The notes under the pieces are model-generated. The model made no database searches. It was not told where the DNA came from and saw nothing but the letters and a program-made list of their open reading frames with translations. Positions 3,336 through 13,868 of a DNA stretch of 64,000 bases are shown in pieces. The translations under genes were made by a program, and so were the position numbers. The stretch comes from Planctomycetota bacterium (lineage in GTDB: Bacteria > Planctomycetota > UBA8742 > UBA2392), in the NCBI GenBank assembly GCA_019636215.1, contig JAHBXZ010000002.1, forward strand, positions 372,001 through 436,000, given 5' to 3'. Within the stretch, counting starts at the first letter, position 1, and every line of letters begins with the position of its first letter.

Positions 3336-5186
3336 CTACCCCACCTTCGTTTCCGCCCCGCGGCCGTTGGCGAACTGCAACTGGTACAGCTTGGCGTAGC
3401 GGCCGTTCTGGGCCAGCAACTGGCTGTGGCTGCCTTGCTCGACCACCTCGCCTTTGTGCAGCACCAGAATGTTGTCGCTGTCGGTGATTGTGCTCAACCG
3501 GTGCGCCACAACCACTGCTGTGCGGCCATGCATCAGCTTGTGCAGCGCGTCCTGGATCAGCCCTTCCGTCTCGCTGTCGATGTTGCTGGTCGCTTCGTCC
3601 AGCACCAACACTTTGGGGTCAAAGGCCAGCGCGCGCGCAAAGGCGATCAACTGGCGTTGGCCCGCGCTGAAGGTCGCGCCGCGTTCGGCGACCATGCCGT
3701 CGTAGCCACCCTGAAGGCCGCGAATGAACGTGTCGGCGTGAACCACCTTGCAGGCCTGCTCGACCTGTTCGCGCGTGATGCTATGGTCGCCCAGGCGCAC
3801 GTTGTCCAGCACACTGCCCGCAAACAGAAAAACGTCCTGCAGCACCAGGCTGAAGGCGTCGCGCAGGTGGTCGCGGGTCATCTCGCGGATGTCCACGCCG
3901 TCAACAAGAATGCTGCCCTTCTGCACGTCATAGAAGCGCATCAACAGGCTGATGATCGTGGTCTTGCCGCTGCCTGTGGCACCCACCAGCGCCAGCGAAC
4001 TTCCGGCCGGAACCTTGAAGCTGACACCCTTGAGCACCCAATCCGGCTCGGGCTTGCTGGCATCATAGGTGAACCACACATCGCGGAATTCAATCTCGCC
4101 GATGATGACCGGAGCTTTGGGGCTGGCCGGGTCGGCAACTTCGTTCTTCGTGTCCATGACCTTAAAGATGCGTTCCGCGGCGGCCATGGCGGATTGCAGC
4201 ACGTTGTATTTTTCGCTCATTTCTCGAATCGGGCGGAACAGCATCGGCGTGTAAAGAAAGAACGCGAAGAACGTCCCGAAGTCCAGCTTGCCCGCGAAAA
4301 TGCTGCTGGTCCCCCACCACACCACCACCGCCACCGTGGCCGTGCCGGCAAGTTCGACCACCGGAAAGAAGATTGAGAAGTTGAACACCGTGCGATAGGT
4401 GGCCTCGCGGTAATCGCTGCTCAGGTCGTCAAAGCGCTTCTCCATGCGCTTTTCCGTGCCGAAGATTCGCGTGACGCGCCAGCCCTGAATCGTTTCATTC
4501 AGAAACGAATTCACGCTGGCCAGCTTCACGCGCATGTCGCGAAAGGCGCTGCGCGCGCGACCTCGGAACAGCCAGGTCAGAAAGCCCATCACGGGTATGG
4601 CCAGCACCACAATCAGCGCAAGCTGCCAGCTGAGCATGAACATCAGCGTCAGGGCACCAACGATGATAATCGCGTCACCCACAAGCTGCACAAACCCCGA
4701 GGCAAACACTTCGCCGATGGCCTCCACGTCGCTGGTAACGCGCGTGACCAGCCTCCCCACCGGGTTCCTGTCAAAGAAACGCAGCGGCTGCTGCTGGATG
4801 TGCGTGTATGTCTGCTGGCGCAGGTCCAACACGGCTTTGTTGCCAAGGATCTGGAACAGGTACCCGTCGCCAAAACGAGCGGCAAACTGCACGGCAATCA
4901 GGCCCAGAAAGGCAAATGCATACCAAGCCAGTTGGGTCCATGCGGCGTCTTTCTCGGCCTGTGGCGCGGCCTCGTTGCCCAGGATCGTGAAAGGACCGTT
5001 GATCGAATCCCGAACAATCAGCGGCGTGACCAGTTCACAGGCTGCCGCAAGCAGCATGAAGAACACGCCCCCGAGCACCAGCCGCAGATACGGCCGGGCA
5101 TACGGGATCAGCCGCTTGATCAAACGGGCGTCGTAGGCCTTGCCCAGGACCTGATCGTCATCATGGTAAGTATTGCTCAACAGCAC
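3336..5186 (-). CDS. ABC exporter, fused membrane and ATPase domains (MsbA-like)
   Basis: A half-transporter of 616 residues that should work as a homodimer exporting a lipid, peptide or drug across the inner membrane. The N-terminal six-helix domain is about residues 30-340 and the nucleotide-binding domain about 370-605. Walker A reads GATGSGKT, the signature FSAGQRQ and Walker B VLVLDEATSN, followed by the H-loop AHRLS, so ATP hydrolysis should be intact. A non-canonical insertion of polar residues (NEAAPQAEKDAAW) sits between the first two membrane helices. It is divergent from the ESCRT-like cluster, whose start lies 96 bases away, so both promoters share this interval. Substrate unknown. 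Confidence 0.95.
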   Translation of the reverse strand: MLLSNTYHDDDQVLGKAYDARLIKRLIPYARPYLRLVLGGVFFMLLAAACELVTPLIVRDSINGPFTILGNEAAPQAEKDAAWTQLAWYAFAFLGLIAVQFAARFGDGYLFQILGNKAVLDLRQQTYTHIQQQPLRFFDRNPVGRLVTRVTSDVEAIGEVFASGFVQLVGDAIIIVGALTLMFMLSWQLALIVVLAIPVMGFLTWLFRGRARSAFRDMRVKLASVNSFLNETIQGWRVTRIFGTEKRMEKRFDDLSSDYREATYRTVFNFSIFFPVVELAGTATVAVVVWWGTSSIFAGKLDFGTFFAFFLYTPMLFRPIREMSEKYNVLQSAMAAAERIFKVMDTKNEVADPASPKAPVIIGEIEFRDVWFTYDASKPEPDWVLKGVSFKVPAGSSLALVGATGSGKTTIISLLMRFYDVQKGSILVDGVDIREMTRDHLRDAFSLVLQDVFLFAGSVLDNVRLGDHSITREQVEQACKVVHADTFIRGLQGGYDGMVAERGATFSAGQRQLIAFARALAFDPKVLVLDEATSNIDSETEGLIQDALHKLMHGRTAVVVAHRLSTITDSDNILVLHKGEVVEQGSHSQLLAQNGRYAKLYQLQFANGRGAETKVG

Positions 5187-5282: not shown

Positions 5283-6074
5283 ATGCCGGAACCAGCTCCA
5301 GAATCAAACGCCCGGGCAGCGGCACTTTCTGCCATGCAAAGCCTTTTTTCAGGGCTGGAAAGCCGCATGGTTCGCCAGCGCATGTTGCCACACCCGGGCG
5401 AGGGTTCCCTGTATGACCTGGATCCAAACCGTGTTTCGCGCCGCAGTTACAGGGCTGGCGACTTGACGCCAAACGGCGATGGCCCGTTTTCGCGGCGCGA
5501 GGCCGTGGGCCTGCTGCACAAACCCATGCTTGGGTTGGCCCAAGTCAAGGTCTGCGTGGTGCTGGATTTTGCCTGGGGTCCCAATCGGTTCACCCCTGAG
5601 GCCGTGAATCGCGCCGCAGAGTGGGCATTGGCCCCGCAACGCCAGGACATCTACTTCGTGATCGGCGTGGCCGGCGCGGCGCTGCAGCACGGCCACAGCG
5701 ACGACCTGCTGCAGAGTCTCACCGGTGGCGGCAACTGGCGCGCGGCCCTTGTGGAGTACGTGACGCCAGGCTGGGCCGTTACGTCACCCCGGGACGGCGT
5801 GATTCTGCCAGCCCTTTTCGAAAACCTGTTCGACCCCGAGCCCATGGACCAGAAAGTCGCACGGGTAGATTCTGCATTGGCCGCAGCCGGCGAGCTGAAA
5901 GAACCCGGCGGATTTCTTCTGCTGGAAGAACTGGCCGGGCGCTGTGCAGTCAGCCGCGACATTGTGACAGACCGCGCTATCCTGTTTGCCGAACGCACAC
6001 CGGGGCTGGACGTCAAGGATGTTGGCGGCAGCCTGATTCTGCAGCGCAACCGTTTTGAGTCCCTCAGGGCCTGA
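5283..6074 (+). CDS. Hypothetical protein, first gene of the ESCRT-like cluster
   Basis: A 263-residue soluble protein I cannot assign. The N-terminal third is polar and carries a glycine/proline-rich region. The middle contains beta-strand-like sequence (VKVCVVLDFAWG, DIYFVIGVAG). The last 55 residues read like a winged helix: helix LLLEELAGRC, turn, helix VSRDIVTDRAI, then a strand pair (GLDVKDVGG, LILQRN). The ATG at 5283 follows an AAGGGA element and lies after the putative promoter; the frame is open further upstream only as antisense to the ABC gene. The next start follows one base after its stop, so it is tightly coupled to the ESCRT-like genes. An adaptor role is inference from context. 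Confidence 0.75.
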   Translation: MPEPAPESNARAAALSAMQSLFSGLESRMVRQRMLPHPGEGSLYDLDPNRVSRRSYRAGDLTPNGDGPFSRREAVGLLHKPMLGLAQVKVCVVLDFAWGPNRFTPEAVNRAAEWALAPQRQDIYFVIGVAGAALQHGHSDDLLQSLTGGGNWRAALVEYVTPGWAVTSPRDGVILPALFENLFDPEPMDQKVARVDSALAAAGELKEPGGFLLLEELAGRCAVSRDIVTDRAILFAERTPGLDVKDVGGSLILQRNRFESLRA

Positions 6075-6075
6075 C

Positions 6076-6753
6076 ATGAGCATTCTTGAACGCATCAAGT
6101 TGATGATCAAAGGCCAGGCCGGCGAAGCCGAGCAGGTCATCAAAGACGCACACAGCACCAGCGAGATGCTGGGGCATCTCGATGAGTTGATCACCCGCAA
6201 CGAAGTCGAGTTGCGCAAGACCCGCCAGGAACTGGCACGCCTGGAGCTGTCCGAGCGCGCCAGCATTGAAAACATCAAGTCCGGCCGCGTTGGCGACCGC
6301 GAAAAAGAGTTCGTGCTGCTTCAGATCAAGCGCACCCGCGGCCAGATGGAAAACCTGAAGCTGCGCGCGGACATCCTGAACAAGAACATAGAGCTGCACC
6401 TGAACCTGGTCGGCAAAATCCAGGCCATGGAAGCCATGGACCTGCGCGGTATTGAGCAGAATGTGGTCGAGCGCGTGATGCTGGACTTTGAAGAAGGAAT
6501 GGAGAAGTTCCGCGAGAACGTGACCACCGGCGAAGGCGTTACCAAGGCCCGCAACGAGGTGCTCAGCGCCAAAGACAAGGACGACCTGCGCAAGCTGGAG
6601 AAAGAAATCCTGGGCGAACCCAAGCCCTCGGCCAACCACAACGCGGATATCGACGCCGAGATCGCCAAGCTGGAGAAAGAGCTGGCCCAGCGCGAAGGAA
6701 AGGCGGCCAAAGAGGCGCCGCCTTCGCAAAAGACAGCAGAGGACATCGAGTAG
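6076..6753 (+). CDS. Coiled-coil protein resembling PspA/ESCRT-III
   Basis: A 225-residue, almost entirely helical and highly charged protein. The start MSILERIKLMIKGQ is an amphipathic segment like the membrane-contact helix of PspA/Vipp1. Long charged helices follow (about residues 25-125), then a helix with the hydrophobic pattern VVERVMLDFEEGMEKF, a linker, and an acidic C-terminal helix (DAEIAKLEKELAQRE) loosely like the MIT-interacting motif of ESCRT-III proteins. It starts one base after the previous stop. PspA, Vipp1 and ESCRT-III share one fold; with the neighbouring Vps4-like ATPase, a polymer-forming membrane-remodelling subunit is my inference. Sequence similarity is structural in character rather than a clear family match. 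Confidence 0.8.
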   Translation: MSILERIKLMIKGQAGEAEQVIKDAHSTSEMLGHLDELITRNEVELRKTRQELARLELSERASIENIKSGRVGDREKEFVLLQIKRTRGQMENLKLRADILNKNIELHLNLVGKIQAMEAMDLRGIEQNVVERVMLDFEEGMEKFRENVTTGEGVTKARNEVLSAKDKDDLRKLEKEILGEPKPSANHNADIDAEIAKLEKELAQREGKAAKEAPPSQKTAEDIE

Positions 6754-6766
6754 GTCCTTACACAAC

Positions 6767-6793
6767 CTGCCGCGCTTGGTAATCGCGCGGCAG
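6767..6793 (+). other. Intergenic hairpin inside the cluster
   Basis: A perfect nine-base-pair stem (CTGCCGCGC with GCGCGGCAG) encloses a nine-base loop, in the 85-base gap between the two coiled-coil genes. No T-tract follows, so it is more likely an mRNA stabiliser, processing site or partial attenuator than a full terminator. Confidence 0.4.
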
Positions 6794-6838
6794 TCGGGCA
6801 GCCTGTGAAATGACATTCAGAAGTGCAATGGAGCAAGC

Positions 6839-7453
6839 ATGGCCAACTTCTTTCAGATGCTGTTCGGCAGCGGGCTCGACCTGCGAAAACTGAAGGTCAA
6901 GCTGCGTGAAGTCGAGCGCGAGCGCCGCAAGTACTTCCTGGACCTGCGCAAGCTCAGCGCATCGCAGACCGACCTGATCGAGAAGATCAAAGGTGCCCGG
7001 CGCGAGGGCAACCAGTTTGAAGTCGACTACCTGTGGGAAGAACTGAAGTCGATGAAGCACGACTTCGCCTTCAACAAGCGCGCAGCAAAGGTCAGTAACC
7101 TTGAAGGCATCGCGCTCAAGAAGTACATCCGTGGACTCGAGCGCCTCGAAAAACGCAAGGACAAAGACGGCGTAAACAAACTGCTGCAGCGCATCCGCAC
7201 CAGCGGCCTGGACGCCAAGCTGGCTCTGCAAAGCATCGACGAGGAAGCCTATCTCGATGAGTTGAACGCAACCCTGGACGACCTGGGCCTGGAAGTCGAC
7301 GCCGAGATGTCCGACGACGACCCGGAGAAAGAGAAGTTCCTGTCCGAGATCGACACCATCAACGAGGCCGAAGGCAGCGGCAACTTTGAAGAAGCGCTCA
7401 AGACCGAGGCGCAGCTCAAGCAGAAGCTGGAGAAAGAAGACCAGGCGATTTAG
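6839..7453 (+). CDS. Charged helical protein of the ESCRT-like cluster
   Basis: A 204-residue helical protein. It begins with a hydrophobic MANFFQMLFG segment that could dip into a membrane, followed by long basic helices (about residues 15-60 and 65-120). A shorter helix then reads EAYLDELNATLDDLG, like the alpha-5 region of Snf7 proteins. An acidic linker leads to a C-terminal helix, LKTEAQLKQKLEKE, that partly fits the ESCRT-III motif (D/E)xxLxxRLxxL. The basic N-terminal half and acidic C-terminal half are the charge layout of ESCRT-III proteins. A GGAG site precedes the ATG. ESCRT-III-like is my best reading, below certainty. Confidence 0.78.
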   Translation: MANFFQMLFGSGLDLRKLKVKLREVERERRKYFLDLRKLSASQTDLIEKIKGARREGNQFEVDYLWEELKSMKHDFAFNKRAAKVSNLEGIALKKYIRGLERLEKRKDKDGVNKLLQRIRTSGLDAKLALQSIDEEAYLDELNATLDDLGLEVDAEMSDDDPEKEKFLSEIDTINEAEGSGNFEEALKTEAQLKQKLEKEDQAI

Positions 7454-7524
7454 CTCCTGGCTCCCGCTGTGGGGTCAACCGCTTCGTCTGACTCAAGACT
7501 CGGAACTCCGGACTCGAAACTCTC

Positions 7525-8763
7525 ATGGACCTCGGCCCAAAACTGAAACGCGCCTGCGACGACAGCCTCCACAAGGCCAAGATGGCCTGGAAGGGCGGCG
7601 ATGCCGAGGGCGCCGCCGCGCACTTTGAGGCCGCCAGCAAGGCCATGTTCAAGTATGCCGAGTACGGCGGTTCTCGCGCGCAGGAGTATGCACGCAAGAA
7701 AAAGGCCATTGAGTACCGCGATTTCGCCAAGCGCCTTCGTGAAGTCGGCACCGAAAACGCCGCCGGCGCGGCCAGGAAGCTGACGCCGCCCAGCGGCGAC
7801 CCCGACGACAACGGCCAGCGAGAAAACTCGCCCGAAGAAGGCGAGGCCGCGATTTCCAGTGCCGTAAGCGCCATGGTGCACACCAGCGGCATCACCTGGC
7901 ACGACATCGGCGGCCTGGATGAAACCAAGCGCGACATCAAGTACGCGCTGGGACTGTCGCTGGCCAAACCGCCGGAAGGCGTGAAGATCACGACTTTTCG
8001 CAACATCCTGTTTTACGGCCCGCCCGGCACGGGCAAGACTCTGCTGGCCGCTGCCACCAGCAACAGCCTGAAGGTCACGACCGAGGGCCAGGCGCTTTTT
8101 TTCAACGTGAAGGTCAGCGGCATTCTCAGCAAGTACTTTGGTGAAAGCAGCAAGATTATCAGCGAGCTCTATGGTGCGGCGCGCGACAACAGCCCCAGCG
8201 TTGTGTTTCTGGACGAGTTCGAAAGCCTGACAACCGACCGCGACAGCGGGGACCAGTCCGGCGCCGAACGCCGTATCCTAAGCACCATCCTGGCCGAACT
8301 TGACGGACTTGCCGAAAAGGGCCGCGGCGACCTGTTTGTGCTGACGATTGCCGCCACGAATCGCCCCTGGGACATCGATGCGGCTGTCATGTCGCGATTT
8401 GAGAAGCAAATCCTGATTCCCCTGCCGGATGCAGTATCGCGCAAGGCCATTCTCGACATTCACCTGGGCAGGCGCGGATACCAGATCGACTGTGAACTCG
8501 AAGAGCTTGTCGAAGTCACTAAAGGGTACTCAGGGCGTGAGATAGAGCGGCTGTGCAAGGAGGCAACCAGCGAGATGATAGAAGAGCTGAACGCCGACCT
8601 GCCCGACGTGATTGATAAGGGCCTGGCTGGTACGCGGGCATACCAGGTGAAAATCCGGCCTCTGGGCAAGCAGGACTTCCTGCGCGCTTCCGAGCACATC
8701 AAGCCGCAAACAAGCCCGGAAACGATGCAGCGTTACCTGGACTGGGGAAAAGAGCAGGAATAG
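7525..8763 (+). CDS. Vps4/CdvC-like AAA ATPase with N-terminal MIT-like domain
   Basis: A 412-residue ATPase. Residues 5-75 look like an MIT three-helix bundle, with the W-x10-F-x2-A pattern and the ending EYRDFAKRLREV. After a flexible linker comes a single AAA module: Walker A GPPGTGKT (165-172), pore loop SKYFGESSK (aromatic Y204/F205), Walker B VVFLDEF (D230/E231), sensor AATNRPWDID (276-285), and arginine finger MSRFE (R291). The sensor-to-finger block and IPLPD, plus a C-terminal helix with HIKPQTSPET, are typical of Vps4, CdvC and katanin. Such enzymes are hexamers that pull ESCRT-III subunits out of filaments. No clear ribosome site precedes the ATG. Bacterial FtsH, ClpX and Lon have different layouts. 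Confidence 0.92.
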   Translation: MDLGPKLKRACDDSLHKAKMAWKGGDAEGAAAHFEAASKAMFKYAEYGGSRAQEYARKKKAIEYRDFAKRLREVGTENAAGAARKLTPPSGDPDDNGQRENSPEEGEAAISSAVSAMVHTSGITWHDIGGLDETKRDIKYALGLSLAKPPEGVKITTFRNILFYGPPGTGKTLLAAATSNSLKVTTEGQALFFNVKVSGILSKYFGESSKIISELYGAARDNSPSVVFLDEFESLTTDRDSGDQSGAERRILSTILAELDGLAEKGRGDLFVLTIAATNRPWDIDAAVMSRFEKQILIPLPDAVSRKAILDIHLGRRGYQIDCELEELVEVTKGYSGREIERLCKEATSEMIEELNADLPDVIDKGLAGTRAYQVKIRPLGKQDFLRASEHIKPQTSPETMQRYLDWGKEQE

Positions 8764-8774
8764 CAGCAGCCCTC

Positions 8775-8826
8775 AGCGTCAGCGACGGGTCGGATGCAAC
8801 TTGAACTTTGTACCGTCGCTGACGCT
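8775..8826. repeat. Long inverted repeat between ATPase and kinase genes
   Basis: Two perfect 14-base arms, AGCGTCAGCGACGG at 8775-8788 and its complement at 8813-8826, are separated by 24 bases. Flanking bases (CCC and GGG) extend the pairing imperfectly. There is no T-run. It may be a dispersed intergenic repeat or an mRNA structure that sets the level of the downstream genes. The right arm ends only 20 bases before the kinase start. Confidence 0.6.
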
Positions 8827-8845
8827 TCGGGCTCCTGTTCTGCCA

Positions 8846-9646
8846 ATGCCGTCAAACCTCGAAATCACTACTGACCCTGACTTCGATGCACGCCTACGCG
8901 CGGCGGGCCTGCTCGATCTGGATTCGTTGTTCACCCGTGCCGACCTGCAACCCGTCAAGGCCACACTGGCCGAGCGCCAAACCCTGAAACTCGTCCTGCC
9001 CGACGGCATGACGGTCTACATCAAGCGTTATCCCAAGCTGCGCAAACCCGGCCTGCTGAGCCGGTCATCTGCACCGTCGCCCGCCAAGCGCGAGTGGATG
9101 GCCCTGACCATGCTCGGTCATGCCAAGGTGCCCACGATTCGCCCATTGGCGCTGCTGGAGCAATGCGAGGGCAAACACGCCGTCCGCGCCGCACTGCTTA
9201 CGCTTGGGCTTGACGCGCCGCAGACGCTGGAAGACATCGCCCGGGCCAATCCGGCACCAACCCGCAAACACGCCATCACCCGCGAACTGGCGCGCATCAC
9301 GCGCCTGATGCACGACGCCGGCGTCAATCATCGCGACTATTATCTGGTGCACATTCGCGTTGGCGCAGGCGACCAACTGTTCATCACCGATCTCAATCGT
9401 GCCGACCTGCGCAAAGTCGTGCCCGAGCGCTGGATCGTGAAGGACCTGGCTGCATTGCACTTCTCAGCATCAGCAAGGCATGTGAGCAAAGCGGATCGGG
9501 CCCGGTTTCTTACGGCCTACACAGGCAGGCACCTGCAAGAGTCGCGCACATTGATCAAGGCGATTGCCCGTAAGGCCGCGAGAATGGCCAGCCACACCGC
9601 GAAGAAAGTCGCCAAAGGCGAGGCGAACTATCATCGGAATGACTGA
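8846..9646 (+). CDS. WaaP/InaA-type lipopolysaccharide-kinase family protein
   Basis: A small protein-kinase-like fold of 266 residues. The ATP-binding lysine is probably K60 (VYIKRY) with E83 (KREW). The catalytic loop is H162-R163-D164, and the metal-binding Asp is D182 (FITDLNR). This pattern, with HRD-x2-YL and a DLNR replacing DFG, fits the WaaP/InaA (Kdo kinase) group that phosphorylates lipopolysaccharide core sugars at the inner face of the inner membrane. It sits inside the ESCRT-like cluster, in the same direction and between the ATPase and the Snf7-like gene. Whether it modifies a lipid glycan or a cluster protein is unknown. The start at 8846 is used because similarity begins after it. 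Confidence 0.82.
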   Translation: MPSNLEITTDPDFDARLRAAGLLDLDSLFTRADLQPVKATLAERQTLKLVLPDGMTVYIKRYPKLRKPGLLSRSSAPSPAKREWMALTMLGHAKVPTIRPLALLEQCEGKHAVRAALLTLGLDAPQTLEDIARANPAPTRKHAITRELARITRLMHDAGVNHRDYYLVHIRVGAGDQLFITDLNRADLRKVVPERWIVKDLAALHFSASARHVSKADRARFLTAYTGRHLQESRTLIKAIARKAARMASHTAKKVAKGEANYHRND

Positions 9647-9717
9647 AATGTCGCGCGGTGATTAGCGAAAAACAACGGCGCGTCGGTTACACTGGCATCG
9701 GAAACATGAGGATCACG

Positions 9718-10323
9718 ATGGGAATCTTCAAGTCAAAAGAAGAACGGCGCATCTCCCGCGACATGGAGATCAAGAAGGGCATCCAGCGCATGAGGCGCCA
9801 GATCAAGGAACTCACTGTCAGTGAAGAAGAGTGGCTGGAAAAGGCCCGGCGCGCCGCGCGCATGACTGCCAACGACCAGCTGGCGTTCATTCGCAAATCA
9901 CTCAAGGCCACCACCGCCCAGCGCCGGATGCTGGAACGCCAGATGCTTACGATTGAGGCGGCCTACCAGATGAAAAACCAGGCCGAGAGTTTTGCGGTGT
10001 TTGCCGAATCCATGGGCGTGGTCAGCAAGAGCATCAATGAGGTGTATAAGACCACTGACCTCGAGGCGACGCAGAAAAACTTCGAACACGCCATGATGCA
10101 GGCCGAAACCATGAGCCAGCGCATGGACCTGTTTCTCGACATGACCAAGGACAACCTGTTCGAACAGGACAGCCGCACCGGCGAATCGCTGGTCAGTGAC
10201 GAAGAGATTGACCAGATGATCGGCGTGGACTCCGGCACGCGCAAGAAGTTGACGCGCGAGGAGCTTGACCGCGAGATCGCCCGCACCCTGGGCGAGGGCC
10301 ACGAGGAAGAAAAGTCGAAGTAG
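9718..10323 (+). CDS. ESCRT-III (Snf7/Vps2)-like protein
   Basis: A 201-residue helical protein that resembles eukaryotic Vps2/CHMP2 in order of features. It starts MGIFKSKEERR and has a basic helical hairpin at about residues 8-82. This is followed by a helix with MKNQAESFAVFAESMG and the block LEATQKNFEHAMMQAETM, matching the CHMP alpha-3/alpha-4 region. An acidic tail holds DEEIDQMIG and the end helix ELDREIARTLGE, at the place of the MIT-interacting motif. The N-terminal half is basic and the C-terminal half acidic, as usual for ESCRT-III. A GAGG site lies six bases before the ATG at 9718; an ATG at 9706 is possible. It is the last gene of the cluster and the likely substrate of the Vps4-like ATPase. 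Confidence 0.82.
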   Translation: MGIFKSKEERRISRDMEIKKGIQRMRRQIKELTVSEEEWLEKARRAARMTANDQLAFIRKSLKATTAQRRMLERQMLTIEAAYQMKNQAESFAVFAESMGVVSKSINEVYKTTDLEATQKNFEHAMMQAETMSQRMDLFLDMTKDNLFEQDSRTGESLVSDEEIDQMIGVDSGTRKKLTREELDREIARTLGEGHEEEKSK

Positions 10324-10350: not shown

Positions 10351-10818
10351 CTAGATCGCCGGCACCACAGCCAGCGTGGCGGGTATGCGCTGTTCGCACC
10401 AGTTGCGCAACCTCTCCAGGCGCGCCTTAACTTCGGTTTTGTGATAGCCAAAGATGCGCGTAGCGTCGTTGCCGAAGCTGGCAAAGCCCGACTGTTCCAC
10501 ACTGACGCGAACTCGACCGTTCAGATCGGTAAGGCTCAGCATTTCTTCCACGGCACCGTCCAGCCAGTTGTAGGACCACTGGCCTCCCACGCGCCAGCTT
10601 GGATCCCAGGTGCTGTAGGTGAACCGGTCGATGCGTTCGTGCCCCGGATAGCGCAGTTCAAAACCGCCACCCACATCAGCCCTAAGGCCCACGACAGGCT
10701 GCCCCCACCAGGCCCGCAATTCATGAAGGTCGGTCAAGGCGCGCCAGACGGCCGCGAGATCGGCGGCAATCTCAAGCTCCAGGCACAGGTAATGCGGCGC
10801 AAGAATCTTGGTCGTCAT
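10351..10818 (-). CDS. SRPBCC (START/AHSA1-like) family protein
   Basis: A 155-residue protein with the helix-grip pattern of the SRPBCC superfamily: an N-terminal strand LCLELEIAADLAAVW, the WRALTD helix, then HELRAWWGQP, alternating strands, and a long C-terminal amphipathic helix (HKTEVKARLERLRNW). Members bind hydrophobic ligands or act as Hsp90 co-chaperone-like domains. The ligand cannot be inferred. It lies ten bases upstream of nothing but the convergent ESCRT-like gene end and follows murD on the same strand, so it is probably cotranscribed with murD. Confidence 0.8.
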   Translation of the reverse strand: MTTKILAPHYLCLELEIAADLAAVWRALTDLHELRAWWGQPVVGLRADVGGGFELRYPGHERIDRFTYSTWDPSWRVGGQWSYNWLDGAVEEMLSLTDLNGRVRVSVEQSGFASFGNDATRIFGYHKTEVKARLERLRNWCEQRIPATLAVVPAI

Positions 10819-10827
10819 GCTTCGGCT

Positions 10828-12396
10828 TCAAGCCCCTAGGGAAGCATGTGCTTTTACTAACGCCTTAAAGTGACGTCCACGATCTTCGAAGTTTGTGAAC
10901 TTCTTTCCCGGCGCATGTTCATAGAAGCTGGTGCTCGCCGGAGACATCAGCACCACCTGGCCCTCGCGCGCAGCCGCAAAGGCCGCACGGCAGGCGCCGT
11001 CAAAGTCGGCAAAGTCAGCGCCCACCTTCACGCCCGCAGCGTTGAGTGCCACCCGCAGCTTGGCCGCCGTGGGGCCTTGCAGATAGAGGCCCGCAATGCC
11101 GGGGTGACTCGCAATGGCGGCGGCGAGTTTGTCGTAACCCGCGCCCTTGTCGCTGGCGCCGCCCAGGATGAGGTGCACGCCGTGGCGAAACACACTCAAG
11201 GCCGCCAGCGTGGCCGTGGGATCGGTGGCGATGCTGTCGTTGTAGCAGCGCGCACCACTAACCGTGCCACAGTACTCAAGGCGATGCTCGACGCCGCGAA
11301 AGCGGCGCAGACCGCGCGCTAGCGCTGGCAGCTCCTCGTCGTTGGTCAGGCGCGCGGCAAGCGCACCCGCCGCCACGGCGTTGGCCCAGTTGAAATCCCC
11401 CGGCAGGCGTAGATCTTCACGTGTGACGACGATGCGTTCGTCACTCTCGTGCGCGACCATGCCGCGCGCGCGCAACGTGCCGTCGCCTCCGGCAGCCCAG
11501 GGCTGCATCCTTCCCGGAATGTAGGGTGCCTCACCCAACACTTTCGTCGGGAAGAACAACCGAAAGCGGCCGGGATTCTTGGCGGCGATGTCGCGACACA
11601 CGGGATCTTCGCCATTCAGGATCGCCGTGGGCGCGTCACCCCACTCACTCCAGTACTCAAAAATCGCCTGCTTCGACCACGCGTACTCCGCGAGGTCACG
11701 GTGCCAGTCCAGGTGATTAGGCGTGATGTTCGTGATCGCAGCGAAATCACACGAGCGCTTGATGCGGTGCCAGTCCATCAACTGGAAGCTCGACAGCTCA
11801 AGCACTGCCAGGTCCCAAAACGTCATCTCGCCCAGCCGGTTCAGCAGGGGAGTACCCATGTTGCCGCCAAGCCAGACGCGCTCCGGGACCTCCGGGTCGA
11901 ACGGCACAGGGTTCGCAACCGGGTCGGCCCAAAGGCCCTCAAGTTCCGGCTGGGCGCGAGGCCGGTACTCGCAGAGCATTTCGTAGCACATGGCGGTCGT
12001 GGTGCTCTTGCCGTTGCTGCCGGTAATCCCCACGGCATGGCCGGGAAATGCCTCAATGAAAAGGCTCATTTCCTGCGTCACTTCGGCGCCGTTGTCGTGG
12101 GCCAGTTGCAGCAGCTTGTGGTCGGGCCGCACGGCCGGGCTGTGGATCACCACCTGGGCGTCCTTGAAGTCCTGCTCGCGGTGTTCGCCAAGCCGGTACT
12201 CAATCGGCAGGCCCTTCAGCTCATCCATGCTCTCCTGCAGCACGCTCGCGTCGCGCAGGTCGGTAACCACGACCTGAGAGCAGTACCCGCAAAGGAACTT
12301 CGCGGCTTCAACGCCCCCGCCGAACAGGCCAAGTCCCATGACAAGGCCGCGTTTGCCGCGAAAGCGCTCAAAAGGCTGCAGGTGGTCGGCTGTCAT
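10828..12396 (-). CDS. murD: UDP-N-acetylmuramoyl-L-alanine:D-glutamate ligase (MurD)
   Basis: Adds D-glutamate to UDP-MurNAc-L-Ala in the cytoplasm, an essential step of peptidoglycan precursor synthesis. The P-loop GITGSNGKSTT, the acidic ELSSFQL segment, NITPNHLDWH and the late YNDSIATDP and GGASDKG motifs are all typical of MurD. At 522 residues it is about 70 longer than usual; extra sequence lies after the P-loop (around residues 145-175) and in the middle domain. The gene starts within the stop of the PEGA lipoprotein (four-base overlap). Its presence argues that this bacterium makes murein. Confidence 0.95.
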   Translation of the reverse strand: MTADHLQPFERFRGKRGLVMGLGLFGGGVEAAKFLCGYCSQVVVTDLRDASVLQESMDELKGLPIEYRLGEHREQDFKDAQVVIHSPAVRPDHKLLQLAHDNGAEVTQEMSLFIEAFPGHAVGITGSNGKSTTTAMCYEMLCEYRPRAQPELEGLWADPVANPVPFDPEVPERVWLGGNMGTPLLNRLGEMTFWDLAVLELSSFQLMDWHRIKRSCDFAAITNITPNHLDWHRDLAEYAWSKQAIFEYWSEWGDAPTAILNGEDPVCRDIAAKNPGRFRLFFPTKVLGEAPYIPGRMQPWAAGGDGTLRARGMVAHESDERIVVTREDLRLPGDFNWANAVAAGALAARLTNDEELPALARGLRRFRGVEHRLEYCGTVSGARCYNDSIATDPTATLAALSVFRHGVHLILGGASDKGAGYDKLAAAIASHPGIAGLYLQGPTAAKLRVALNAAGVKVGADFADFDGACRAAFAAAREGQVVLMSPASTSFYEHAPGKKFTNFEDRGRHFKALVKAHASLGA

Positions 12397-12884
12397 TCTT
12401 TTGGCGGTTGGATTGGCCGGGGCTTGATGATCAGGAAGTTCCGCTGGGCGTACTCAAACCGGTCTTCGGGCCGGCTGGTGGTGCGATAGGCCTGCGCGGC
12501 GCGATAAAGATCTTCCACGTCAGCGGGCTTCGCGCGCTCCAGCTTCACGTTCACATAGTGATTGTCTACCACAGGCCAGGGCAGCAGTACTTCGGCAAAG
12601 AAGTCAATCGGCGGGTACTCATACCAAGGTGCCTCAAGCTTGACCTCGCCGCTTTGCGTAGCAAACCCGGGTTTGCGGAAGGTGTACTCTCGCTTGCCGT
12701 AGTAGATGAAATTGGCGTAGAGGGCACCATCCGGGTGATCCTTGGGGCGGGTCTGCCCCACGTACTCGCCGTCAATGAAAACATCGGCCCCCGGCGGATC
12801 AGAGATCAGGTAGATCCGGCGCTCCACGCAGCCGCAAACCAGCAGCATGAGGGCAAACAGGACTGCCGCCGTCCATTTTGGCAT
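12393..12884 (-). CDS. PEGA-domain lipoprotein
   Basis: A 163-residue exported lipoprotein. The signal peptide ends in a lipobox LLVCGC with the lipidated Cys at residue 19. Directly after comes a PEGA-type repeat: IYLISDPPGADVFIDGEYVGQT, split here as SDPPGADVFIDG plus EYVGQT, and later GKREYTFRKPGF. PEGA domains are small beta-folds found on surface proteins. The C-terminal part is rich in Arg and Pro and unassigned. It overlaps murD by four bases. Confidence 0.85.
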   Translation of the reverse strand: MPKWTAAVLFALMLLVCGCVERRIYLISDPPGADVFIDGEYVGQTRPKDHPDGALYANFIYYGKREYTFRKPGFATQSGEVKLEAPWYEYPPIDFFAEVLLPWPVVDNHYVNVKLERAKPADVEDLYRAAQAYRTTSRPEDRFEYAQRNFLIIKPRPIQPPKE

Positions 12885-12971
12885 GGCGCGATGCTAGCAA
12901 CCCTCCAAACCATCGAAAGGTTGTGCGGGGCAAAGCCGCTGCTATCGTTCCCACCAAAGGCAGGAGCCCCT

Positions 12972-13868
12972 ATGCAAAGCAAGTTCAGCCGAATTGTTGT
13001 GCCCACTGACTTCAGTGACACAGCCGACAGCGCTATCAGCGCAGCCTGCGACCTGGCGACCTACTATCGCGCGCAGGTTGACATTGTGAACGTGGTCGAT
13101 GCCATGGTGTATGCCTATGCCGGCTACCCATTTGCCTCGCTTTCCGCGGAACTGACCACTGGCGCCGAAGAAGCACTGCGCAAGTTGAAGCTGCCGGCTT
13201 CCGCCAAGGGGCTGACGCTGAACCGCTTTGTGCTGTCAGGAACTCCTGCTGCCGAGATCAACGCCCACGCGGAACGTCACAAGGCCGACCTGATTGTAAT
13301 GGGAACGCGTGGACACGGTGCCGTGGCGCGGTTCTTTCTGGGCTCGGTGGCTGACAAGGTGCTTCATTCCGCAAGCAGCCCGGTGCTGATCACCAAAGCC
13401 TCCAAGGGCAAAGTGAAGCACCCCAAGAAGAAAACCAAGCCGTTCACGCGCATTCTGTTTCCCACGGACTTCAGCGAGACCGCAAATCGCGCGCTGGCCC
13501 GGGCCGTGGCGCTGACCGAAGACTCCGACGCGGAGCTGTTCGTACTGCACGTGGTCGACGATACTCTGATCAGCACCCACGTTCCCAAGGAACGCGAACT
13601 GATCCTGAAGGAGCTTCGCCGTGCTGCCCTGGATGAAATGAAAAAGGGGCTGCCGGCGCACCTGTTGCAGCACTTTGAAACCACAGGCGCCGTCAAGCGT
13701 GGCGAACCAGGCAAGGCGATTGCCGCCTACGCCGAGACCCACGCCTGCGATCTGATCGTCATGGGCAGCCACGGCCGCACCGGCGTCAAGCGCGCATTGC
13801 TTGGCAGCGTGGCCGACAAAGTTGTGCGGCTGGCCAAGTGCGCTGTATTCATCGAGCGCGGCAAGTAG
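12972..13868 (+). CDS. Tandem universal stress protein (two Usp domains)
   Basis: A 298-residue protein with two UspA domains in one chain (about residues 1-145 and 155-298). Each begins with the IVVPTDFS or ILFPTDFSE strand-loop. Each ends with the ATP-binding motif G-x2-G-x9-GS: GTRGHGAVARFFLGS in the first and GSHGRTGVKRALLGS in the second. Both are therefore predicted to bind ATP. The family assists survival under stress in the cytoplasm. AGGAG lies five bases before the ATG at 12972, which fixes the start although the frame is open far upstream. A bidirectional terminator follows. Confidence 0.95.
   Translation: MQSKFSRIVVPTDFSDTADSAISAACDLATYYRAQVDIVNVVDAMVYAYAGYPFASLSAELTTGAEEALRKLKLPASAKGLTLNRFVLSGTPAAEINAHAERHKADLIVMGTRGHGAVARFFLGSVADKVLHSASSPVLITKASKGKVKHPKKKTKPFTRILFPTDFSETANRALARAVALTEDSDAELFVLHVVDDTLISTHVPKERELILKELRRAALDEMKKGLPAHLLQHFETTGAVKRGEPGKAIAAYAETHACDLIVMGSHGRTGVKRALLGSVADKVVRLAKCAVFIERGK

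Follow-up and report, generated by a model that had tools for sequence, protein, structure and literature searches.

The 64,000-nucleotide stretch analyzed here (the window) belongs to a 4.0 Mb planctomycete genome with a completeness of 91% (GCA_019636215.1; contig JAHBXZ010000002.1, positions 372,001–436,000) and contains, at 5283–10323, a cluster of six open reading frames (ORFs), named g1–g6, arranged head to tail on the plus strand. The original prediction, made from the sequence alone, described six genes in one direction forming a bacterial ESCRT-III/Vps4-like cluster, and the ORF listing confirmed this arrangement. The first gene, g1 (5283–6074), is predicted to encode a protein with an alpha/beta domain and, C-terminal to it, a winged helix, possibly an initiator. 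It is followed by genes for two predicted ESCRT-III-like helical proteins, g2 (6076–6753) and the charged g3 (6839–7453), for a Vps4-like AAA ATPase, g4 (7525–8763), for a WaaP/Kdo-like kinase of accessory character, g5 (8801–9646, with a possible later start at the in-frame ATG at 8846), and for a Snf7/ESCRT-III-like protein, g6 (9718–10323). The g6 ORF opens at 9643–9658, and the conserved start MGIFKSKEE at 9718 was used as its boundary. Long ORFs on the opposite strand flank the cluster (3336–5186 and 10351–10818). The analysis identifies these genes as a real, conserved bacterial gene system of the ESCRT-III/Vps4 type.

There is good evidence that g6 is an ESCRT-III-related protein. When the profile of the g6 family was compared with the PDB, CHMP3 (0.0035) and Snf7 (0.05) ranked first; a phmmer search of the PDB with the single sequence gave no match; detection depended on the family profile. 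Pfam Snf7 is matched by 21 of 45 g6 relatives at E ≤ 0.01 (best 1.6e-5). The window copy alone reaches E 0.0032 and 17.6 bits, under the cut-off of 27.3, and the S. acidocaldarius control likewise stays under the Snf7 cut-off. At E 1e-3, neither the Snf7 nor the Vps4_C model has a match anywhere in the window's genome, so annotation based only on Pfam would miss the cluster. In a Foldseek search with the g6 model, the best 12 matches were eukaryotic or Asgard ESCRT-III proteins and the 13th was Vipp1. The model consists of helices at residues 7–48, 52–111, 115–128, and 132–147, i.e., a long alpha1–alpha2 hairpin and then shorter helices; the hairpin by itself is not specific in the fold comparison. 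The Snf7/Vps2-like protein proposed earlier is thus borne out for g6. The isoelectric point (pI) is 10.2 for the first 110 residues and 4.6 for the remainder, and a basic first part with an acidic remainder was found in 115/115 homologues of at least 190 amino acids among the 120 listed. Two C-terminal elements, SDEEIDxMI and LDxEIAxELG, are conserved in the family; the window copy carries them as SDEEIDQMI (10195–10221) and LDREIARTLGE (10264–10296), and both are candidate MIT-binding elements. Their spacing differs from the MIM1 consensus, and a MIM motif was not recognized with certainty.

PspA was considered as the true identity of g6 and rejected: the 45 relatives match five families at E ≤ 0.01, one of them Snf7 and none of them PspA_IM30. 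The same result bears on the broader view that the cluster is an envelope-stress system of the PspA/Vipp1 type, with an ATPase recruited by convergence, and not an ESCRT-III/Vps4 pair by descent. Profile comparison does connect g6 with PspA (0.0022, reversed control 0.64; the PspA set was untrimmed, which weakens its comparisons), SPFH proteins, one of which accompanies the cluster, partner PspA too, according to a survey (PMC10936438), and in the window's family no PspA over the Pfam cut-off was found in any of 16 genomes, so that the cluster could replace it. Nevertheless, eukaryotic and Asgard ESCRT-III stand above Vipp1 by fold, and three g6-bearing genomes (G024, G037, and G041) have PspA as well as the cluster. 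Taken with the Snf7 matches, this makes a PspA-type origin improbable.

The charge layout of ESCRT-III, which had been noted for the other helical proteins, was confirmed by the pI of the N- and C-terminal parts: 9.9 and 4.1 for g3, and 8.1 and 4.8 for g2 (first 110 residues and remainder), the layout of g2 being the weakest among g2, g3, and g6 (net charge +1/−8). Some loci elsewhere encode g1 fused to g2, and g2 is homologous to the C-terminal half of this fusion (profile comparison, E 1e-47). In the model of one natural fusion, P0241, this half has the helix order of ESCRT-III, with hairpin scores that are non-specific. Profile comparison links g3 to g8, which is counted together with g3 in the related loci (1.4e-5, reversed control 0.51), and to g6 (4.5e-4, reversed control 0.43), and links the fused form of g2 to g8 (2.2e-5); g2 against g6 was without signal, and g2 against g3 gave nothing clear. 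In Pfam, g2 and g3 have marginal matches to unrelated families only. Both are regarded as ESCRT-III-like by predicted fold and weak profile links, and are not filed as ESCRT-III members; they may serve as subunits alongside g6.

The protein g1, for which no function had been suggested, is present as described and has no Pfam match, but it now has a predicted winged-helix domain. The g1–g2 fusions match its profile over their first part, and the winged helix is visible in the P0241 model; in g1 it would occupy residues 189–255 (about 5847–6047). A human ESCRT-II chain ranked first in the Foldseek search with the fusion (E 0.06), amid many other winged-helix proteins. This whole-model search returned chiefly winged-helix and coiled-coil matches and barely probed the N-terminal alpha/beta domain. 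The model of the fused homologue contains a single winged helix and not a pair, and g1 is not assigned to ESCRT-II (Vps22/25/36).

The ATPase g4 matches Pfam AAA (4.3e-33) and contains a Walker A motif (8017–8040), the pore-loop SKYFGES (8128–8148), a Walker B motif (8200–8217), and the sequence ATNRPWDID (8353–8379); both Walker motifs are found in 25/25 g4 ORFs. Related loci encode a second Vps4-like ATPase, g7, after g6. Vps4_C is matched at E ≤ 0.1 by 28 of 47 g4 relatives (best 6.4e-8) and is found in 14 of 15 g7 copies; the window copy of g4 scores 15.5 bits, under the cut-off of 21.3. All sequences in the g4 and g7 alignments carry the motif ATNxPW; among the references examined, yeast Vps4 and CdvC have it, and spastin, Cdc48, and FtsH do not. 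In a tree built from 39 AAA domains, among them none from katanin, fidgetin, Msp1, or PAN, g4, g7, CdvC, yeast Vps4, and spastin stand opposite Cdc48 D1/D2 and FtsH with support of 98/95, which falls to 89/76 if a very long Ycf46-like row is kept; g4 and g7 lie on long private branches. The penalty for forcing the ATPases to group with Cdc48 is 11.4 log units for g4, 11.3 for g7, and 12.7 for the two together. The sequences thus favor, and do not prove, a likely place of g4 on the Vps4/CdvC/spastin side.

The earlier description also gave g4 an MIT-like N-terminus, which is kept here as a tentative assignment. The alignment of g4 to Vps4B spans residues 7–354, MIT region included, but Pfam MIT is not matched. 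The proposed domain (about 7525–7749) resembles the N-terminal domain of g7 (95%, E 5e-8; reversed control 0.005) and the MIT domain of CdvC (0.0063, reversed 0.14); compared with yeast MIT it gave nothing over the control (0.074, reversed 0.14). Similarly, the g7 N-terminus matches CdvC MIT (0.0017, reversed 0.18) and has no match to yeast MIT (0.63). As a yardstick, yeast MIT and CdvC MIT gave 0.012 in the same comparison.

It is proposed that g6 and g4, with g1, g2, and g3, form a membrane-remodeling machine working like archaeal and eukaryotic ESCRT, to which a probability of about 0.7 can be given. Several results weigh against it. The approximately unbiased (AU) test does not formally reject placement with Cdc48 (p-AU 0.087 for g4, 0.054 for g7, and 0.080 for both), and in raw score both ATPases come closer to Cdc48 models. 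The Vps4/CdvC-like ATPase of the original prediction is made likely by the tree and by Vps4_C in relatives, a Cdc48-type placement being less probable. In addition, no ESCRT-III match was found for g2 and g3 in Pfam or the PDB; of the two further charged helical proteins with ESCRT-III layout that had been described, the layout and, for g2, the fold of the fused homologue stand, but a direct sequence match does not. These AU values and raw scores, together with the fact that coiled-coil folds match many families middlingly, fit a cytoskeletal or scaffold assembly devoid of membrane activity, turned over by g4 and g7 as generic Cdc48-like AAA unfoldases. Such an assembly would not account for the similarity of g6 to Snf7, for Vps4_C and ATNxPW in the ATPases, or for the co-occurrence with an SPFH-domain protein, g9, described below, and it is considered unlikely.

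The gene g6 was found in 27 of 60 relatives examined, including 16/16 from the family to which the window belongs. Across the phylum it was found in 55 of 392 genomes, spread over 38 of 267 genera and 24 families; among the most complete genomes it was found in 14 of 217. With one locus counted per g6-bearing genome (n = 55), a Vps4-like ATPase lies nearby on the same strand as g6 in 47 loci, g1 is present in 41, g2 in 43, g3 or g8 in 47, and the ATPase with all of these in 38; the cluster is more than a chance arrangement because the gene order recurs in most of the 55 genomes. In five of the eight loci lacking the ATPase (L036, L044, L049, L099, and L116), the sequence is short or breaks off near g6, and the other three (L040, L042, and L098) have g1–g3 and g6. 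Two ATPases occur in 16 of the 55 loci, the second one behind g6 in some of them. The observations that would speak against a system of this type, namely a non-Vps4 ATPase, helical proteins from unrelated families, and no shared neighborhood, were looked for: g6 proved related to ESCRT-III, the predicted neighborhood is conserved across genomes, and the tree favors the Vps4 side for the ATPase, whose relatives match Vps4_C.

The kinase g5 is confirmed as WaaP-like by Pfam (Kdo/WaaP, E 1.3e-26) but lies outside the conserved core of the cluster. It occurs in 12 of the 55 loci; all but one of these belong to the window's family (11 of its 16 loci), the exception being the outlying locus L110. 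On this ground it was rejected as a core part. Other genes vary as well. In one genus, an extra protein is encoded between g3 and g4 (L033:4699–5844; also L034, L035, and L048), in which two MIT-like repeats can be recognized by eye and which matches the g4 profile weakly. In another locus, two adjoining g3-like genes (L043:10635–11921 and 12154–13008) occur along with another helical protein at the place of g2. Downstream of the cluster in L037, a protein kinase with an RDD domain is encoded (12215–13747; Pfam Pkinase 3.9e-34, RDD 7.7e-17), and further kinase-like ORFs are seen repeatedly beside the cluster at other loci. The same locus codes for a protein that is putatively secreted or anchored (11419–12276); it matches LpoB weakly (0.028) and is similar to ORFs in about ten loci. 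The clusters of flanking ORFs include antisense shadows, which were set aside by eye.

The distribution also bears on whether an archaeal ESCRT operon was recently transferred or the assembly is contaminated. Archaea have similar modules, and the 26 named carriers are all metagenome-assembled genomes, titled Planctomycetota, Phycisphaerae, Phycisphaerales, Brocadiaceae, and similar; two have no more than “bacterium” or “uncultured bacterium” as a title, and one is titled Alphaproteobacteria. Against this, g6 is present in all 16 sampled genomes of the family and, in the phylum as sampled, in 24 families, the branches of the ATPases in the AAA tree are long and private, and the G+C content of the cluster region, 0.597, lies inside the spread seen along the window (0.594–0.660), which makes such an origin highly improbable. 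The locus titled Alphaproteobacteria (L058) carries fused g1–g2, g6, and g7, owing to a binning error or to transfer, and a Sumerlaeota protein is also among the listed matches.

Comparison of the flanks of g6 loci revealed a partner of the cluster, the unannotated protein g9. Band_7/SPFH is matched by 5 of 14 g9 members at E ≤ 0.1 (best 1.8e-5), and the C-terminal half is read from its repeats as a beta-propeller, with single weak WD40 and PQQ matches. In the window's genome, g9 is encoded on another contig (G000:C30:265718–268006; L133:6641–9154); an example near g6 is L037:9471–11411. At E ≤ 1e-10, with three candidates scored per genome in the 392 genomes, g9 was found in 53 of the 55 g6-bearing genomes and in 6 of the 337 others (Fisher p 4e-56, uncorrected for kinship), and in 23 of the 24 families that have g6. 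The two genes lie within 5.3 kb of each other in 24 of the 53 genomes. By this co-occurrence, g9 is a new partner of the cluster.

A mechanism may be outlined as follows. The winged-helix protein g1 would start assembly, as is thought for the winged-helix proteins of ESCRT-II and archaeal systems, and g2, g3, and g6 would co-polymerize on the cytoplasmic face of the membrane by way of short N-terminal helices and basic helical hairpins. The MIT-like domain of g4 could then bind the acidic C-terminal tails of these proteins, and the AAA ring of the ATPase would extract subunits from the filament, so that the membrane is constricted, budded, or resealed. The SPFH/beta-propeller protein g9, encoded elsewhere in the genome, might mark or organize the membrane site. 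We infer the binding among these parts and every membrane step. The likeliest use would be membrane maintenance or vesicle formation, over obligatory cell division. In a Cdv-like division machine replacing FtsZ, the filaments would form and cut the division neck; archaeal cells are divided by CdvB/CdvC, as a 2023 review states (PMC7615534), and no FtsZ-like match was found in any of the 55 g6-bearing genomes. Because only 10 of the phylum's 392 genomes gave an FtsZ-like match at all, this lack is uninformative, and the 337 genomes with no g6 match mean that planctomycete division in general does not need the cluster. A role as the division machine is therefore rather unlikely. The proteins matched in those ten genomes (L093, L094, L095, and seven more) are distant FtsZ/tubulin-like ones, all under the FtsZ cut-off.

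According to the 2024 survey by Makarova et al. on the evolution of ESCRT (PMC10936438), homologues occur in archaea and are absent from bacteria, and some archaeal ESCRT loci include SPFH proteins, propellers, and upstream winged-helix genes. Archaeal ESCRT/Cdv loci (CdvB–CdvC, euryarchaeal, and Meth_adaptin loci) as presented there resemble the cluster in having ESCRT-III-like genes beside a Vps4-like ATPase and a winged-helix gene upstream, and in some systems SPFH and propeller proteins are likewise partners. Unlike them, the cluster is found in Bacteria and adds two predicted ESCRT-III-like proteins; many of its loci hold two ATPases, and g9 joins SPFH and propeller in one protein. In the g1–g2 fusion, the winged helix stands ahead of the helical part, whereas in CdvB it is C-terminal, and g4 has RF where g7 and Cdc48 have PGRF. 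With eukaryotic ESCRT-III/Vps4 (CHMP/Snf7, Vps4), the cluster shares the Snf7-type profile, fold, and charge layout of g6, and probably the MIT-like domain and Vps4_C of the ATPase family, at very low identity. PspA/Vipp1 (IM30) has the ESCRT-III superfamily fold, and an SPFH partner is known for PspA; the cluster differs from it in the linked Vps4-like ATPase. According to the 2023 review, bacteria have no clear Vps4 homologue and PspA has no Vps4 partner (PMC7615534), and in a paper on PspA, Vps4 is discussed by analogy (PMC11746142). The literature search found no report of a bacterial Vps4/ESCRT-III locus, with bioRxiv and most subscription journals outside its reach, where one could exist; within these limits the cluster does not appear to be a standard bacterial system, as had been supposed. 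A bioRxiv preprint from 2022 by Zhang et al. reportedly claims ESCRT-III homologues in multicellular magnetotactic bacteria, which might be of PspA type or might have a Vps4 partner.

Planctomycetota are a phylum known for unusual membranes. A conserved bacterial system of the ESCRT-III/Vps4 type changes where this machinery can have originated, and it provides a concrete gene set for probing membrane invagination, vesicle formation, and FtsZ-free division, with the tight co-occurrence of g9 as a handle on site choice. A bolder and tentative proposal, held somewhat less probable than its negation, is that Planctomycetota possess an ESCRT pathway of their own, which drives true membrane budding or scission in bacterial cells. 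It would comprise three ESCRT-III-like subunits, an SPFH/beta-propeller platform, either one or two MIT–Vps4 motors, and an initiator with a winged helix that is joined to ESCRT-III by linkage or fusion. If this is true, Vps4-powered ESCRT would extend beyond archaea and eukaryotes.

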